From: a virus
Reading direction: 5' to 3' (one strand)
DNA length: 30,481 bases
Virus record (IMG/VR): IMGVR_UViG_3300033233_000676
Location: 1 to 30,481 of that record
Position numbers and translations under genes: made by a program. Below, one piece after another: positions 1-30,481 of this stretch. The notes below the pieces were generated by a model. That model was not told the DNA's origin and did not search any database. It worked only from the letters and a program-made list of their open reading frames with translations. Position 1 is the stretch's first letter. Each line of letters begins with the position of its first letter.

Positions 1-139
1 AATGCTTTTACTTTCTGGGGATTATTTTGTTTCCATTGCTTAAATTTCTCTTTTACTTTGTCTAAATGTCTTAGTCTGCTTCTTCTTTTTTCTTCTTTAA
101 CTTTTTCGGGATTTTGTTTTATCCAGTGTTTTTTATTCT
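1..139. repeat. terminal overlap of the circular contig, left copy
   Basis: These 139 bases recur at 30343-30481 with one difference (T at 127, C at 30469). A reading frame runs in phase across the junction when base 1 is joined to base 30342. The repeat is therefore best read as the overlap left by assembling a circular or circularly permuted genome. A true 139-bp terminal repeat of a linear virion is a less likely alternative. Confidence 0.9.
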
Positions 140-287
140 CCGCAACTTTTTCGGGATGTTTATTTCTCCATTTTTCAAAATATTGTTTTTTCATAATGGC
201 TCTGCACTCTTCACAATACAATTGAGACCGTCCAGTTGGAGTGAATTCTTTTCCGCAAAGTTTGCAAGTTCGTGTCTTAAGGTTCAT
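1..287 (-). CDS. HNH-like nuclease 2, N-terminal part (gene crosses the contig junction)
   Basis: The ATG at 287 opens a frame that leaves the window at base 1 and continues at 30342 to a TGA at 30114-30116, giving 171 residues. The N-terminus has a zinc knuckle (C8, C11, C25, C28). A Lys/Arg-rich stretch with repeated W-x-x-x-(H/N)PEK units follows, resembling nuclease-associated DNA-binding repeats. The C-terminal part (see 30114-30481) has FEGSVFHH and IYIPREIHQS, matching the second copy at 28306-28818. The His-His pair and later His residues suggest a beta-beta-alpha metal (HNH-type) nuclease, so a homing-type endonuclease is the best guess. The start overlaps the end of the transglutaminase-like gene by 11 bases, and its ribosome site is poor, suggesting coupled translation. 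The terminal overlap predicts His54 in this copy and Arg54 in the right copy. Confidence 0.75.
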   Translation of the reverse strand, partial: MNLKTRTCKLCGKEFTPTGRSQLYCEECRAIMKKQYFEKWRNKHPEKVAENKKHWIKQNPEKVKEEKRRSRLRHLDKVKEKFKQWKQNNPQKVKA

Positions 288-22709: not shown

Positions 22710-23957
22710 TTAAAAGTCTTCTTGAAACTTCCCTGATGGTGTTAAAACCATCTTTTTCCAGCCGTTGCTTAAAACACCTAATGTCTGATTTTTTGCAACG
22801 GCATAATAGAATTTGTTTATCTCGTCTTTATCTCTACGAATTAAAACAACCGAAGTAGCGGTCTGTTCTAATGCTCCTGAGTCTCGAAGTCTTGATAAGT
22901 CGATTTCAGTTTCGTCTTCTTCTTTTGCACGATTGAACTGACTCAAAATAACAATACAACGCTTTTTTGAAAGCCTTCTGAGTTCTCTTGCAATATATTC
23001 CATCTCTTCATTACGGCTTGAACGGGTTTTTGTTTTAATAAGTTGGATATAGTCTATGAAAACCACATCAAAGTTATGACTCTCAATCCAGTTTTCAATA
23101 TCACTCAAATCCGAGTATTCCTCTACAAAATAAAAGTTTTTAAACACATCTTGATTTATGATAGCCATTCCAGCGTCCCACCACTTTTTGTCTTTTAAGT
23201 TAATATTTGCAAGTGGTGTCCCCTGAGAAATTTGCGAAAGTTCGTCTCCAAATTCCCAGTTGATTAGTCTAATAAGAAGTTGCTCTCTCCCAAGTTCCAT
23301 ACTTAAATAACCAACTTTCGCACCTTGAAAGAGAAATGATAAGGCAAGGTTTAATGCGATTTGAGTTTTACCTGTAGAAGTTCTCCCAGCAATGTAAATA
23401 TTTTCACCTCTCATAAACGGTATGAAATAAGTTAATTTCGAAAGATTGTCTGAAGTCCAGCGTTTAGATTCTGCAAGTCGTTTATAATCATCTTCGGTCA
23501 AAGTCTCACCGAAAGGTTTTTCGGACTCGTCTATGTAAAGACTTGAAAGTTCAGAGCCGATTTGCCTTATAGCGTCTAAGTCGCCAGCGAGTGCCAAGTC
23601 CTGTATTTTTTCACCAAGTTCGAAAGCGTGCCGTAGGACTGATTTTTCTTTAACAACCCTCACATAGTAAGGAAGGTTTATCGAAGTAGGTATTGACATA
23701 GAAAGTTGCATAAGATAAGATTCGCCACCGACTTCGGGAAGTTTGTCTCCTAATTCGTCTATGACTGAAACGATATCGGGTTCAATGTTTTTAGACCATA
23801 AACCTTGAATTGCTTTAAAAATTGTCTGATGTTCCGTCCAGTAAAAGTCTTGAGGACTTAATTCCTCGCCACCTTTGCCATTAGCAAGAATACAACCTAA
23901 AATAAACTGTTCCGCTTCGACTGAATACGGGAGCGGTTTGAGTTCAGAAGTAGCCAT
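22710..23957 (-). CDS. dnaB: DnaB-like replicative helicase
   Basis: 415 residues. The N-terminal domain shows VEAEQFILGCIL and FYWTEHQTIFKAI, typical of DnaB. The RecA-like half has Walker A GRTSTGKT (191-198), LSMELGREQL (the H1a-type region), Walker B VVFIDYIQLI (about 278-287) and a sensor-like ILSQFNR, then SGALEQTATSVVLIRR. It unwinds the phage fork and is probably loaded by the initiator encoded upstream, whose gene it overlaps by 14 bases. No phage primase or polymerase is present, so those would come from the host. AGGAGG precedes the ATG. Confidence 0.93.
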   Translation of the reverse strand: MATSELKPLPYSVEAEQFILGCILANGKGGEELSPQDFYWTEHQTIFKAIQGLWSKNIEPDIVSVIDELGDKLPEVGGESYLMQLSMSIPTSINLPYYVRVVKEKSVLRHAFELGEKIQDLALAGDLDAIRQIGSELSSLYIDESEKPFGETLTEDDYKRLAESKRWTSDNLSKLTYFIPFMRGENIYIAGRTSTGKTQIALNLALSFLFQGAKVGYLSMELGREQLLIRLINWEFGDELSQISQGTPLANINLKDKKWWDAGMAIINQDVFKNFYFVEEYSDLSDIENWIESHNFDVVFIDYIQLIKTKTRSSRNEEMEYIARELRRLSKKRCIVILSQFNRAKEEDETEIDLSRLRDSGALEQTATSVVLIRRDKDEINKFYYAVAKNQTLGVLSNGWKKMVLTPSGKFQEDF

Positions 23958-24858
23958 AACCTGCCTCCTTTTTCTCTTGTTTCTCTTTCTGTTCGTTTAA
24001 TGCACCCCGCCAAGATTCAATAGAATTTGACACAGCGTGTAAGTTACGCATCATTTGTCTCGGGTCTTTTTTGTCCTTAATATATTGTTCCTTACCATAC
24101 CTCACCGCTTCCATTATCTCATCTATCGTATATACTTTTAATAGGTCTCTCGCCGCTTTACTATTTATATCAATCGTATGCGGTGGTCTAAATTCGAGTC
24201 CCATCTCTTCACAAAACATTGCAACCAATTTGAAAATCGCCTTGTTCGAAACCTTCTGCTCGCCACTCGCCGACTCAATAGAAGTTTCTTTTTCTTTTTC
24301 ATTTTCATTTAGAGAAGGATTCAAAACCTCTCCCTTAATTGTATCTAAAGATACAATTGGATTATTACTTATTGTACTTATTGTATTTATTGTATTATGG
24401 GTTGATTCTTTTTTGTGTGCTTTGTTGTGTTCTTCGTTGTGTGCTTTTAAATTTTCATGTGTTTGAATTTCTGCATTGTTATTTATCTCGTTGGCTGTCT
24501 CTGTTGTGTGCTCTGTTGTGTTCTTTGTTGTGTTCTTTGATATGTGCTTTTGTGATGTCTCTGATTGAGTATGCTGATATTTATCCCAATTAAGAATGGT
24601 AATCTCTACTCCTCTTGGCAATTTTTTTCTTGTAATCATTTGTTCCTGTTCCATAAAGTTAAAACATTTTCTTAATTGATTTTGTGTTATATGGCATTCG
24701 TTTTCAATAACACCCCAAGAGAAAAAGCCAATTCCGTTCTGATGGTCTACGTTTAATAACAGATAAATCCAAACCTTGAAATATTCTGATGGCTTATCAA
24801 ATATCGGACTTTGAAGTATTTTTCTATGTAAAGAAATCCAGCCATTATTTTTTTCCAT
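23944..24858 (-). CDS. replication initiator with winged-helix N-terminus
   Basis: 304 residues. The first about 95 (GWISLHRKILQSPIF ... VWIYLLLNV ... ITILNWDKYQ) match the winged-helix replication proteins of Bacillota phages. Residues about 100-195 are low complexity, rich in Thr, Asn, His and Lys, and are encoded by iteron-like DNA repeats (see 24337-24550). The C-terminal part (SKAARDLLKVYTIDEIMEAVRYG ... SIESWRGALNEQ) is the usual helical tail that contacts the helicase or loader. As with lambda O, the protein probably binds repeats within its own gene and recruits the DnaB-like helicase encoded next. GAGGA precedes the ATG. Confidence 0.85.
   Translation of the reverse strand: MEKNNGWISLHRKILQSPIFDKPSEYFKVWIYLLLNVDHQNGIGFFSWGVIENECHITQNQLRKCFNFMEQEQMITRKKLPRGVEITILNWDKYQHTQSETSQKHISKNTTKNTTEHTTETANEINNNAEIQTHENLKAHNEEHNKAHKKESTHNTINTISTISNNPIVSLDTIKGEVLNPSLNENEKEKETSIESASGEQKVSNKAIFKLVAMFCEEMGLEFRPPHTIDINSKAARDLLKVYTIDEIMEAVRYGKEQYIKDKKDPRQMMRNLHAVSNSIESWRGALNEQKEKQEKKEAGYGYF
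24337..24550. other. probable replication origin inside the initiator gene
   Basis: On the plus strand seven near-identical 12-bp units of the form GTTGTGTKCTTT occur in two tandem clusters: four at 24503-24550 and three at 24412-24447. The clusters lie in different reading frames (KNTT type versus KAHN type), so the DNA rather than the protein seems to be conserved. Next to them are three 9-bp AT-rich units (CTTATTGTA, CTTATTGTA, TTTATTGTA; 24368-24394) and an inverted repeat with 10-base arms AATTGTATCT / AGATACAATT and a two-base centre (24337-24358). Iterons, an AT-rich unwinding-like tract and a palindrome inside an initiator gene are the layout of an origin. Confidence 0.72.
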
Positions 24859-24885: not shown

Positions 24886-25452
24886 TCATTTTCTATACCT
24901 TTTTAAAATCTCTACCGTTGCTTCCATCATTTCTTGCGTTTCTTTGTAGATGTTTGGCAACGATAAAAAATATTTTGTTACTTCTCTGGCACACTTTTTA
25001 GGGTCTCTGAGAACTTCTCTGGCTGCAAACCTCATTATTTTCCAGCCATCATTGAATAAGTCCCGTTCCCGTTTTTTCTCTTGTTCGAATTGCTCTGGTG
25101 TTGTGCCGTGCCATAAATAACTATCTACTTCAACAATCAGTGCGTGGTCTTTATGATGTTCTGGCAATCCTTCTTCATAATTTTGCCATGCGTAATCTGG
25201 TGTGTAGTAGATTAAAAAGTCAACTTTATACGTTTTACCTGAACTGGTTTTGATAGGGTATTGAGGTAATACATCAAATTGAAATAAGTCCATCGAACTT
25301 GAACGGTTATAACTTTCTGTCTCGCTTGTTAATTCAATATACAGGATTTGCTCGACTGGACTTTCGATGTGAAACAACTCGAACCACATTTCGTAGTCTT
25401 CTACGATTTCTTGACTCTTTCTGTCAAGATACTGCTTTACGATTTTATCCAT
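24886..25452 (-). CDS. Vsr/DUF559-like PD-(D/E)XK endonuclease
   Basis: 188 residues from the ATG at 25452, which has GGGAGG at the right distance. The frame continues upstream without a ribosome site into the leader. Motifs are SPVEQILY (Glu34), YKVDFLIY (Asp78), IVEVDSYLWHG (Glu108, Asp110, His115), then a Lys/Arg helix and GWKIMRF. These are the signatures of very-short-patch-repair/DUF559 nucleases, some of which are free-standing homing endonucleases in phages. It has its own promoter-like box and structured leader, unlike its neighbours, which fits an inserted selfish gene. Confidence 0.82.
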   Translation of the reverse strand: MDKIVKQYLDRKSQEIVEDYEMWFELFHIESPVEQILYIELTSETESYNRSSSMDLFQFDVLPQYPIKTSSGKTYKVDFLIYYTPDYAWQNYEEGLPEHHKDHALIVEVDSYLWHGTTPEQFEQEKKRERDLFNDGWKIMRFAAREVLRDPKKCAREVTKYFLSLPNIYKETQEMMEATVEILKRYRK

Positions 25453-25455
25453 CTT

Positions 25456-25523
25456 CGCCTCCCAATCTTTAGAACAGGGGGAGGGAAAAGAGGAGGCGTC
25501 CCCAGAACCCTTCTCCCTGTTCT
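25456..25523 (-). ncRNA. leader with interlocked inverted repeats covering the ribosome site
   Basis: In the transcript, A (AGAACAGGG, 25523-25515) pairs perfectly with A' (CCCTGTTCT, 25479-25471). B (CGCCTCC, 25498-25492) pairs perfectly with B' (GGAGGCG, 25462-25456), which is the ribosome site of the Vsr-like gene. Order A-B-A'-B' makes an H-type pseudoknot, or two competing hairpins. The connecting segments are 16, 12 and 8 bases, long enough for a true pseudoknot. Same topology as 28824-28866. Confidence 0.65.
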
Positions 25524-25564: not shown

Positions 25565-25765
25565 TTACCTATCATTTTCAAAATTCTTAAGAAATTCTTC
25601 CAGGTCGTCTTTTTTTACAAACCACTGCCAGCCGATTTTGACGGCCTTGAGTTTTCCTCGATAAATGTAGTATTTGATTTTTGACTCACGTATTCCTGTA
25701 AGTTTTACGATGTCCGTAATCGATAAGTAGTTTGTTAAATCAATTGTTTCATTTCCCCACTTCAT
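25565..25765 (-). CDS. small helix-turn-helix (excisionase/MerR-like) protein
   Basis: About 66 residues. LSITDIVKLTGIRESKIKYYIYRGKLKAVKIGWQW is a winged helix-turn-helix of the excisionase/MerR 'helix_turn_helix 17' kind, followed by the usual KKDDLEEFLKNF. ATG at 25765 is preferred, since GGAAGG lies eight bases upstream; an in-frame GTG at 25774 overlaps that site. With no integrase present it is more likely a transcription regulator or architectural protein than an excisionase. Confidence 0.8.
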   Translation of the reverse strand: MKWGNETIDLTNYLSITDIVKLTGIRESKIKYYIYRGKLKAVKIGWQWFVKKDDLEEFLKNFENDR

Positions 25766-25952
25766 TTTCTTCACCTTCCTGGTCTTCTTCTCTTACCACC
25801 AACGCACCACCTAAAAGTTTTCCGAAGTTCAGTGCGTAAAATTTTGCCACTTCTTCCATATCTGACGCTGGAATTGTGAGGACGAGTTTTGCCTCGCCCT
25901 CTCTGTCGATTTTAAGATTCTCTAATGCACAATTAAAAACCACGTTTTTCAT
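25749..25952 (-). CDS. 67-residue acidic protein of unknown function
   Basis: Starts MKNVVFNCALENLKIDREGE, then AKLVLTIPASDMEEVAKFYAL, and ends with a Glu-rich tail (REEDQEGEENEVGK). The first half looks like beta strands followed by a helix. The end overlaps the next gene by 17 bases, so translation is coupled. AGGAGGT precedes the ATG. No family recognised. Confidence 0.72.
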   Translation of the reverse strand: MKNVVFNCALENLKIDREGEAKLVLTIPASDMEEVAKFYALNFGKLLGGALVVREEDQEGEENEVGK

Positions 25953-28305: not shown

Positions 28306-28818
28306 TTAATAATTCTCAGATTGTATTTTTTCTTTTCTTTTCGCAAGCAAATCCATAAGAAACCACCTAACCGCCATGCTGTCTATTTTATCCATTCCTT
28401 GCCCTGTTTTGTGGTTGTGATATAACGACCTATGAAGTTGTTTCGGGATATAGATAACTGTGACGCCATCAGACATATGATGACCTTCGCTTCCCTCAAA
28501 TGGTTTATTTACGGGTTCATAACCAAGTTCACGATAACGCTTACTCATGGACTTTTTAAGCGATTCAAGGTATCTCTTGCGATTTTTCTTTCGCCACTTT
28601 TTTGCTTGCTTAATTATTTTCTTACGATTTTTATAATATCTCTTTCGTGCTGTTTCTTTTGCTTGTTCAGGATGCTCTTTATACCATCTTTTTACTGCTT
28701 TGATATTACCCTCTTTGTAGGCTGTCTCTTTGCACTCAAGACAGTATTTTTGATTGCTATTTGTTGGTATAAATTCCTTACCACAAATCACGCAAACTCT
28801 TGGTTTATATTGTTTCAT
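28306..28818 (-). CDS. HNH-like nuclease 1 with zinc knuckle
   Basis: 170 residues, same family as the junction-spanning gene. Zinc ligands are C9, C12, C26, C29 (CVICGKEF, YCLEC). Basic helices follow with W-Y-K-E-H-P-E type repeats. The C-terminal catalytic-type block is FEGSEGHH (His113, His114), VIYIPKQLHRSLYHN (His129, His134) and GMDKIDSMAVRWFL. The HH ... YIP-x-x-(L/I)H order suggests a beta-beta-alpha-metal nuclease, probably a homing endonuclease. It ends the late operon and has its own promoter-like box and a ribosome site buried in an interlocked repeat, so expression is probably timed separately. Confidence 0.78.
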   Translation of the reverse strand: MKQYKPRVCVICGKEFIPTNSNQKYCLECKETAYKEGNIKAVKRWYKEHPEQAKETARKRYYKNRKKIIKQAKKWRKKNRKRYLESLKKSMSKRYRELGYEPVNKPFEGSEGHHMSDGVTVIYIPKQLHRSLYHNHKTGQGMDKIDSMAVRWFLMDLLAKRKEKIQSENY

Positions 28819-29736: not shown

Positions 29737-30117
29737 TCACTTTAAATTGTAAAGTTTTTTCCTTAACAAATTCTTAATGGTGTCTTCGAGTAAAAAAGAA
29801 ATCTCTTCCTCGTGTTCAAACTCAAAACCTCTTTCCTCAAGGAGAAACTGAATAAAGTGTCCGAACTCGTGTGCTAAAAGTTCTGCTGTTGCTGTCTTGT
29901 TTACGATACGAATTTCGGTTAAAGGTTTGCCTCGCAAAGTTTTTAGTCTAAACCCGATGTCCGCTTCTACTCCGTCCTCATCTATCATTTTCTGTGCTTT
30001 TTCGCTTTGAATATCGACCCAGACTATTTTTATATACTCAATTTCTTCGGTTTTTTCATTTAAAGCCTCATTTTCGGGGTCTGTTTTTTTACTTTGATGT
30101 ATTATACCTTTTTTCAA
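29737..30117 (-). CDS. zincin-like protein with HEFGH motif
   Basis: 126 residues. AELLAHEFGHFIQFLLEE (about residues 78-95) is a classical zinc-protease helix with His83, Glu84 and His87. The upstream beta region (IEYIKIVWVDIQSE, EADIGFRLKTLRG, EIRIVNKTATAE) fits a minimal zincin. A third zinc ligand is not certain. The C-terminal helix is charged. Possible roles are metallopeptidase or a fold-only relative; small phage zincins are often encoded near the lysis or head genes. The start is TTG at 30117 with GGGGGTG upstream, and it overlaps the HNH stop. Confidence 0.75.
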   Translation of the reverse strand: MKKGIIHQSKKTDPENEALNEKTEEIEYIKIVWVDIQSEKAQKMIDEDGVEADIGFRLKTLRGKPLTEIRIVNKTATAELLAHEFGHFIQFLLEERGFEFEHEEEISFLLEDTIKNLLRKKLYNLK

Positions 30118-30481
30118 TTTTCACCCCCATTTTTTGCGTTTAAATGCAAATAATTCCAAGCGATTGCGTTTATTTCGTCCATATTTTGATTGCGTAAAAC
30201 AGAATGTGGAATTGATTGATGTATCTCTCTTGGTATATAAATTCCATAATTTAAATCAAGATGATGAAAAACAGAGCCTTCAAAAAACTCGTTTAAAGGG
30301 ATAAAGCCGAATTGCCTACGTTTGCATTTATATTTTACCCTTAATGCTTTTACTTTCTGGGGATTATTTTGTTTCCATTGCTTAAATTTCTCTTTTACTT
30401 TGTCTAAATGTCTTAGTCTGCTTCTTCTTTTTTCTTCTTTAACTTTTTCGGGATTTTGTTTTATCCAGCGTTTTTTATTCT
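30114..30481 (-). CDS. HNH-like nuclease 2, C-terminal part (continues from base 1)
   Basis: This is the end of the gene that starts at 287. Bases 30343-30481 repeat the left end and stay in the same frame. Unique sequence (30342-30114) encodes KYKCKRRQFGFIPLNEFFEG, then the HH pair (122-123), NYGIYIPREIHQS (His137) and NMDEINAIAWNYL, the catalytic-type half shared with HNH nuclease 1. In this copy residue 54 is Arg rather than His. The TGA at 30114-30116 overlaps the TTG of the zincin-like gene. Confidence 0.75.
   Translation of the reverse strand, partial: NKKRWIKQNPEKVKEEKRRSRLRHLDKVKEKFKQWKQNNPQKVKALRVKYKCKRRQFGFIPLNEFFEGSVFHHLDLNYGIYIPREIHQSIPHSVLRNQNMDEINAIAWNYLHLNAKNGGEN
30343..30481. 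repeat. terminal overlap of the circular contig, right copy
   Basis: Matches bases 1-139 except for C at 30469 (T at 127). See the left copy for interpretation. The difference falls inside the HNH gene and changes one amino acid, so the two reads came from different phage variants, or one carries an error. Confidence 0.9.

Follow-up and report, generated by a model that had tools for sequence, protein, structure and literature searches.

The 30,481-nt stretch of viral DNA analysed here in full (the window, G000) carries on its minus strand two short leaders, at 28866-28824 (element 1) and 25523-25456 (element 2), in which four strands are interleaved in the identical order A-B-A'-B', with A pairing with A' and B with B'. 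From this layout and its covariation in related phages, we consider it reasonably probable that these are cis-acting translational leaders in which a pseudoknot or a bistable switch occludes the ribosome site, and the B:B' pairing probably limits the output of potentially harmful proteins (an initiator, a nuclease). An earlier note had claimed this order at both sites in leaders of different sequence, with B' as the ribosome site and a promoter box directly upstream. The claim was confirmed by the strand complementarity within the window, by the Shine-Dalgarno sequence in B' and by a promoter box that occurs in only two places of the window, before elements 1 and 2 (the element 1 copy being near-exact).

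The comparison was made with five sister phages, the IMG/VR records 000127 (G001), 000120 (G002), 000254 (G003), 000133 (G004), and 000232 (G005), of which G001 and G002 were found via the exact promoter box and the other three via homologue searches. All contigs of the group come from one metagenome sample (3300033233), and they hold five distinct leaders, three of the element 2 type and two of the element 1 type. Element 2 is present in four sisters (G001, G002, G003, and G004) and element 1 in one (G001).

Read 5' to 3', element 2 runs GTA-AGAACAGGG-(AGAAGGGTTCTGGGGA)-CGCCTCC-TCTTT-(TCCCTCC)-CCCTGTTCT-AAAGA-TTG-GGAGGCG-AAG-ATG, with 3 nt between B' and the ATG of a nuclease gene at 25452. 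Its parts and surroundings are as follows.

25565-25774, minus: small HTH_17 gene upstream of the element 2 leader, conserved in the sisters
25558-25553, minus: -35-like hexamer TTGGAT, 16 nt before the -10, a weak match to TTGACA
25544-25527, minus: promoter box AACTTGAGTATAATATAA of 18 nt with the -10 TATAAT at 25536-25531, common to the sister phages
25523-25515, minus: strand A, core AGAACAGGG (25523-25508 with the inner AGGG), 5' half of stem S1
25498-25492, minus: strand B, outer CGCCTCC, continued by the inner TCTTT to 25487; anti-Shine-Dalgarno, covarying with B' in the sisters
25479-25471, minus: strand A', CCCTGTTCT (25485-25471 including CCCT), 3' half of S1
25470-25456, minus: strand B', consisting of AAAGA (25470-25466), the bulge TTG and GGAGGCG (25462-25456), and holding the Shine-Dalgarno sequence
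24886-25452, minus: DUF559/Vsr-like PD-(D/E)XK nuclease gene (DUF559 at 22 bits with a cut-off of 20.6; MTES_1575 at E 5e-7, below its cut-off)
23944-24858, minus: replication initiator, DnaD-like helicase loader (phrog_2514, E 8e-13)

Element 1 is followed by an ATG at 28818 and is made up in the same manner.

28899-28894, minus: weak -35-like hexamer TTGTGT, likewise 16 nt ahead of a -10 TATAAT
28885-28868, minus: promoter box AACTTGAATATAATATAA
28866-28857, minus: strand A, CAGGGCAGGG
28854-28847, minus: strand B, CACCTATC (CACCAGTC in G001)
28845-28836, minus: strand A', CCCTGCCCTG
28831-28824, minus: strand B', GATAGGTG with the Shine-Dalgarno sequence (AGGTG); GACTGGT in G001
28306-28818, minus: zinc-finger/HNH-like nuclease gene downstream of element 1, matching NinG only below the cut-off and of unsettled family

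In all five distinct leader versions B' overlaps the Shine-Dalgarno sequence and ends 1-5 nt before the ATG. A constrained fold of strand A in S1 of element 2 has an energy of -19.2 kcal/mol at 37 C. A search of the window against Rfam (riboswitches, r-protein leaders) gave no match at gathering score. Other candidate devices were rejected: an intrinsic terminator in element 2 was a weak match (GGGGACGCCTCCTC TTTTCCC, 25503-25490) that is not conserved as such; a leader peptide would have an uninterrupted frame in the window and G001, but a frameshift and a stop codon interrupt it in G003; and an RNA thermometer in a thermophile was unsupported, the amino-acid index showing no thermophile sign.

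Homology between the promoter parts of the two elements extends from the -35 hexamer as far as roughly +3 (31/35 identical in G001, by an eye count), the -35-like TTGTGT/TTGTAT of element 1 occupying the position of TTGGAT in element 2, and the two promoters are probably of common ancestry, while the leader parts do not align. The elements are thus not wholly independent, and the earlier idea of independent sequences holds for the leader parts only. Likewise, the AAAG noted directly after A' is found in both element 1 copies and in element 2 of the window, but element 2 of the sisters has CTAG, CCAG or TAAG instead. The box ends 1-3 nt upstream of A and the -10 hexamer 5-7 nt upstream in both elements, and strand A, so placed, would be part of the transcript. 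In four other contigs of IMG/VR that contain the identical 18-mer (L006-L009), the box is followed by unrelated sequence and no such leader; an A-B-A'-B' leader behind this box is restricted to the present phage group. A perfect consensus promoter (TTGACA-17-TATAAT, 28212-28184, minus) lies before the operon leading to element 2; the sister phages retain it, on the downstream side of the element 1 site.

Within the group the terminase is 96-97% identical and the HTH gene upstream of the leader 94%; the leader, by contrast, is strongly variable, yet its pairings are kept. The outer arm of S1 is GAACA/TGTTC in the window and GAGTG/CACTC in the sisters, which amounts to three compensatory double changes. 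S2 of element 2 reads CGCCTCC/GGAGGCG plus TCTTT/AAAGA with a TTG bulge in the window, CTTGCCT/AGGCAAG plus CCTTCC/GGAAGG with an A bulge in G001, G002, and G004, and CTCACC/GGTGAG plus GCCTTTC/GAAAGGC with an AA bulge in G003. Between the window and G001 the outer part of S2 shows one compensatory double change; between G001 and G003, where A and A' are identical and B and B' differ, there are two in the outer and one in the inner part of S2, with no uncompensated change in the matched arms. In element 1, S2 is CACCTATC/GATAGGTG in the window and CACCAGTC/GACTGGTA in G001, i.e., two compensatory double changes with one outer pair lost. The three element 2 type sequences and the one element 1 type pair thus give nine compensatory double changes in total, counted on hand-matched arms, a MAFFT alignment having been dropped in which the B arms were shifted by one column. 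Further covarying examples, on whose existence the earlier note had staked its case, were therefore found, and both helices covary in them. Because one architecture, covarying pairings and a promoter box are shared, a common function of elements 1 and 2, as proposed before, is likely.

These comparisons used a layout scanner and the tracing of homologues; the covariance model proposed earlier was set aside because pseudoknots are beyond that type of model and because elements 1 and 2 have no leader sequence in common. When IMG/VR was queried with the conserved 5' half of the leader from the sisters, only the contigs of this group matched. A DNA search of a phage collection with the region gave no match, and the terminase, compared with 85,000 bacterial genomes, had relatives of at most 57% identity, with no such leader and no host among them. 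The HTH and RecB-like exonuclease proteins as queries found no distant relatives, and hence no broader family of leaders was collected.

We then estimated how often such a layout arises by chance, with a scanner that demanded A of at least 8 bp, B of at least 7 bp, and a G-rich B' adjoining a start codon. In the window it found elements 1 and 2 and nothing else, a count that is partly after the fact, the spacing limits having been widened once to admit element 2 of the window. Under the same widened limits, 400 dinucleotide shuffles of the window gave 13 matches in total (about 0.03 per shuffle), with any match in 10 and two or more in 3. Shuffling the leader only is a harder control, leaders being rich in G and C tracts; the observed score was reached for element 2 in 2/3000 (G000), 25/3000 (G001), and 4/3000 (G003) shuffles and for element 1 in 0/3000 for both versions. 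Across the six contigs of the phage group (150 kb), the layout occurs only at the two element sites and their homologues. A scan of 187 kb of other phage DNA gave no match, and one of a further 475 kb gave two matches outside the group, each in a GC-rich stretch that does not resemble the leaders.

The genes behind the leaders differ. In G001 to G004, the ATG behind the element 2 leader opens a replication-initiator gene and the nuclease is absent, from which the leader is seen to belong to the replication module; in the window, leader and initiator are separated by the DUF559/Vsr-like gene, and the initiator restarts 27 nt downstream of the nuclease gene, without the N-terminal stretch of the sisters. 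No match to this nuclease was found in the five sister contigs and no relative in a homologue search of IMG/VR. On gene order, then, element 2 is the putative leader of a replication module in which the nuclease is a newcomer, in this window only. The leader is retained while the downstream initiator switches type, being DnaD-like in G001 and O-like in G002 (Phage_rep_O, E 3e-18), with the same start in G003 as in G002, and DnaD-like in G004, the last assignment resting on 37% similarity to the initiator of the window and on a start near-identical to that of G001; we read this as pointing to an exchange of modules immediately after the initiator gene start. The loci L004 (G001), L005 (G002), and L015 (G003) combine different initiator families with the same leader and similar first codons. 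The DnaB-like helicase is 97-98% identical to that of the window in G001, G002, and G003 and only 54% identical in G004, which indicates that part of the replication module was swapped there behind the retained leader.

Element 1 behaves otherwise. In the window and G001, its promoter, leader and HNH-like gene come directly after the metallophosphatase gene; the cassette is missing from G002 and G004, where the subsequent intergenic sequence runs straight on. By this distribution, element 1 alone appears to move with its nuclease, as a promoter-leader-gene cassette. In 28 other contigs with HNH-like relatives, the layout was seen at 0/28 loci, even at thresholds of 6 and 5 bp, although this is a weak sample of true relatives in which start codons were set by a simple rule and many matches cover the zinc-finger part only; such a leader is thus not a general property of the HNH-like family. 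The third HNH-like gene of the window (1-287 plus 30114-30481, minus) has none, since it begins inside the upstream gene. This third gene spans the ends of the record, whose first 60 bases recur at 30343; the contig ends thus overlap, which makes a circular or circularly permuted genome probable. A second HNH-like gene in G001 (L011, 2546-2767, minus) is 48-59% identical over its C-terminal part to the HNH-like genes of the window.

From the layout, covariation, genomic position and shared promoter observed above, we infer the following model of RNA folding, repression, timing, transcript start and trigger. Transcription would start within a few nucleotides of strand A, going by the spacing from the -10, and S1 (A:A', 10-13 bp) would fold first. 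Strand B in the loop of S1 would then pair with B' into an H-type pseudoknot of S1 and the outer 6-7 bp of S2, and the inner arm of S2 would pair only once S1 opens. Three states might thus exchange, namely S1 only (open, with the ribosome site free), the pseudoknot (closed), and the full S2 hairpin (closed), and translation would then be low or conditional and would draw mainly on newly made transcripts. The linker between A' and B' is 0-4 nt, probably too short to reach across a full S1, and full S1 and full S2 should therefore be mutually exclusive; when only the outer S2 arm pairs alongside S1, 4-12 nt are available for the crossing. The bulge in B' that splits S2 in every element 2 version fits such a coexistence of S1 with the outer arm and the exclusion of the two full helices. 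In pseudoknot-free folding, S1 was the minimum in all six leaders folded and B' was mostly unpaired, i.e., without the pseudoknot the leader would be open, not closed. A crude stacking estimate puts S1 plus outer S2 at -23 to -33 kcal/mol and the best knot-free fold at -19 to -31 kcal/mol, a gain of about 1-6 kcal/mol that is rough, with a fixed penalty of 9.6 kcal/mol for the knot and loop geometry ignored. The original client would be the replication initiator, whose leader a Vsr-like nuclease gene took over in the window, and the separate promoter-leader-HNH cassette of element 1 would use the same design.

The earlier note had tentatively seen in these leaders a regulatory cassette borne by nucleases. 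That a promoter and RNA leader evolved to restrain free-standing nucleases and are carried by them agrees with element 1, which sits with its HNH-like gene in the window and G001 and not at the same site of G002 and G004, and element 2 likewise has an inserted nuclease behind it; however, element 2 precedes initiators in four sisters without a nuclease, which refutes the idea for this element as a general rule, and the leaderless relatives in 28 contigs and the leaderless third HNH-like gene weigh against it as well, leaving it an unlikely account of the whole. A wider proposal is that a portable promoter-pseudoknot translation module, conserved in pairing pattern and not in sequence, governs diverse initiators and came to mobile nucleases by copying or by capture; the rapid, compensated change of the leader might come from a need to differ from the leaders of rivals, by analogy with plasmid incompatibility RNAs. 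This we regard as speculative, if somewhat less doubtful.

Other readings concern what the strands do. Inverted repeats near initiator genes are common at origins, and arm covariation alone cannot separate DNA from RNA; the repeats could then be an operator, origin hairpins or a cruciform near the initiator whose overlap with the ribosome site is incidental. This too is improbable, as B' in every version lies on the Shine-Dalgarno sequence, at near-constant spacing from the ATG, element 1 precedes an unrelated gene 3.3 kb away, and operators seldom have interleaved repeats. Alternatively, S1 or the pseudoknot could recruit the ribosome (cf. repZ of IncI and timP), with control by breaking of the knot, e.g., by antisense RNA. 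The client of element 2 is a replication initiator, as in repZ, and activating pseudoknots exist (PMC11295053; for repZ, titles in the reference list of PMC10724649), but the knot strand here is the Shine-Dalgarno sequence itself and should block, and no consensus promoter was seen on either strand around element 2 in a scan that also missed the element's own promoter; we hold activation to be unlikely, about on a par with the DNA-level reading and perhaps a shade ahead of it. Strand A lies within a few nucleotides of the expected transcript start in both elements, as it would if a 5'-terminal stem protected the mRNA and B:B' were a by-product; yet B:B' covaries without regard to A:A', since G001 and G003 have the same A but different B and B' strands. 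We give stability very little credence. The most likely reading is a leader in which B:B' pairing occludes the ribosome site.

Few phage pseudoknots are known to control translation, and the present candidate, a compact one, is linked to the start of replication; its compensatory variants found in nature are a ready-made test set. The window shows a nuclease gene settled behind an existing leader and a second nuclease that travels with a leader of the same design, and how invading nucleases get safe expression thereby becomes testable. The homing endonuclease genes of T4-type phages (I-TevI, I-TevII, I-TevIII, segB, and Aeh1 mobE) have RNA hairpins over their ribosome sites, and a late promoter is positioned there such that late transcripts lack the 5' arm of the hairpin (PMC2988022, PMC3014915). 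Elements 1 and 2 resemble them in that a Shine-Dalgarno sequence lies in a leader helix before a nuclease gene, with a dedicated promoter adjoining. Unlike the simple T4-type hairpin, two helices are interleaved here, and the promoter lies upstream of the whole structure and not inside it, so the late-promoter escape of T4 does not carry over; moreover, the client of element 2 was originally, on our reading, a replication initiator, whereas element 1 does travel with a nuclease.

In IncI plasmids, a pseudoknot activates translation of the initiator gene repZ, and control of this knot runs through an antisense RNA together with a leader peptide. Element 2 shares with it a (predicted) pseudoknot before a replication initiator; neither of the two regulators was found here, the antisense RNA having been looked for by a consensus-promoter scan of both strands that misses weak promoters. 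The E. coli rpsO (S15) translational operator has a pseudoknot that involves the ribosome site, is balanced with a knot-free fold and needs S15; our leaders differ from it in sequence and client, and the window has no Rfam match. This operator is mentioned in PMC3014915, and the repZ pseudoknot appears among the titles cited by PMC10724649. In T4, T2, and RB69, a pseudoknot in the gene 32 leader, 67 nt upstream of the start, nucleates gp32 binding, and a 2010 review called it possibly the only viral example used in translational autoregulation (PMC3014915). The likeness is that translation of a phage replication gene is controlled by a pseudoknot in its leader, here as a prediction; in gene 32, however, the knot precedes an A+U-rich ribosome site without structure, to which the phage single-strand-binding protein binds, whereas here the knot strand is the Shine-Dalgarno sequence and no binding protein is known. 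The A-B-A'-B' strands are interleaved here and both helices covary, as expected of H-type pseudoknot translational leaders, and the predicted leader falls among translational leaders with ribosome-site pseudoknots.
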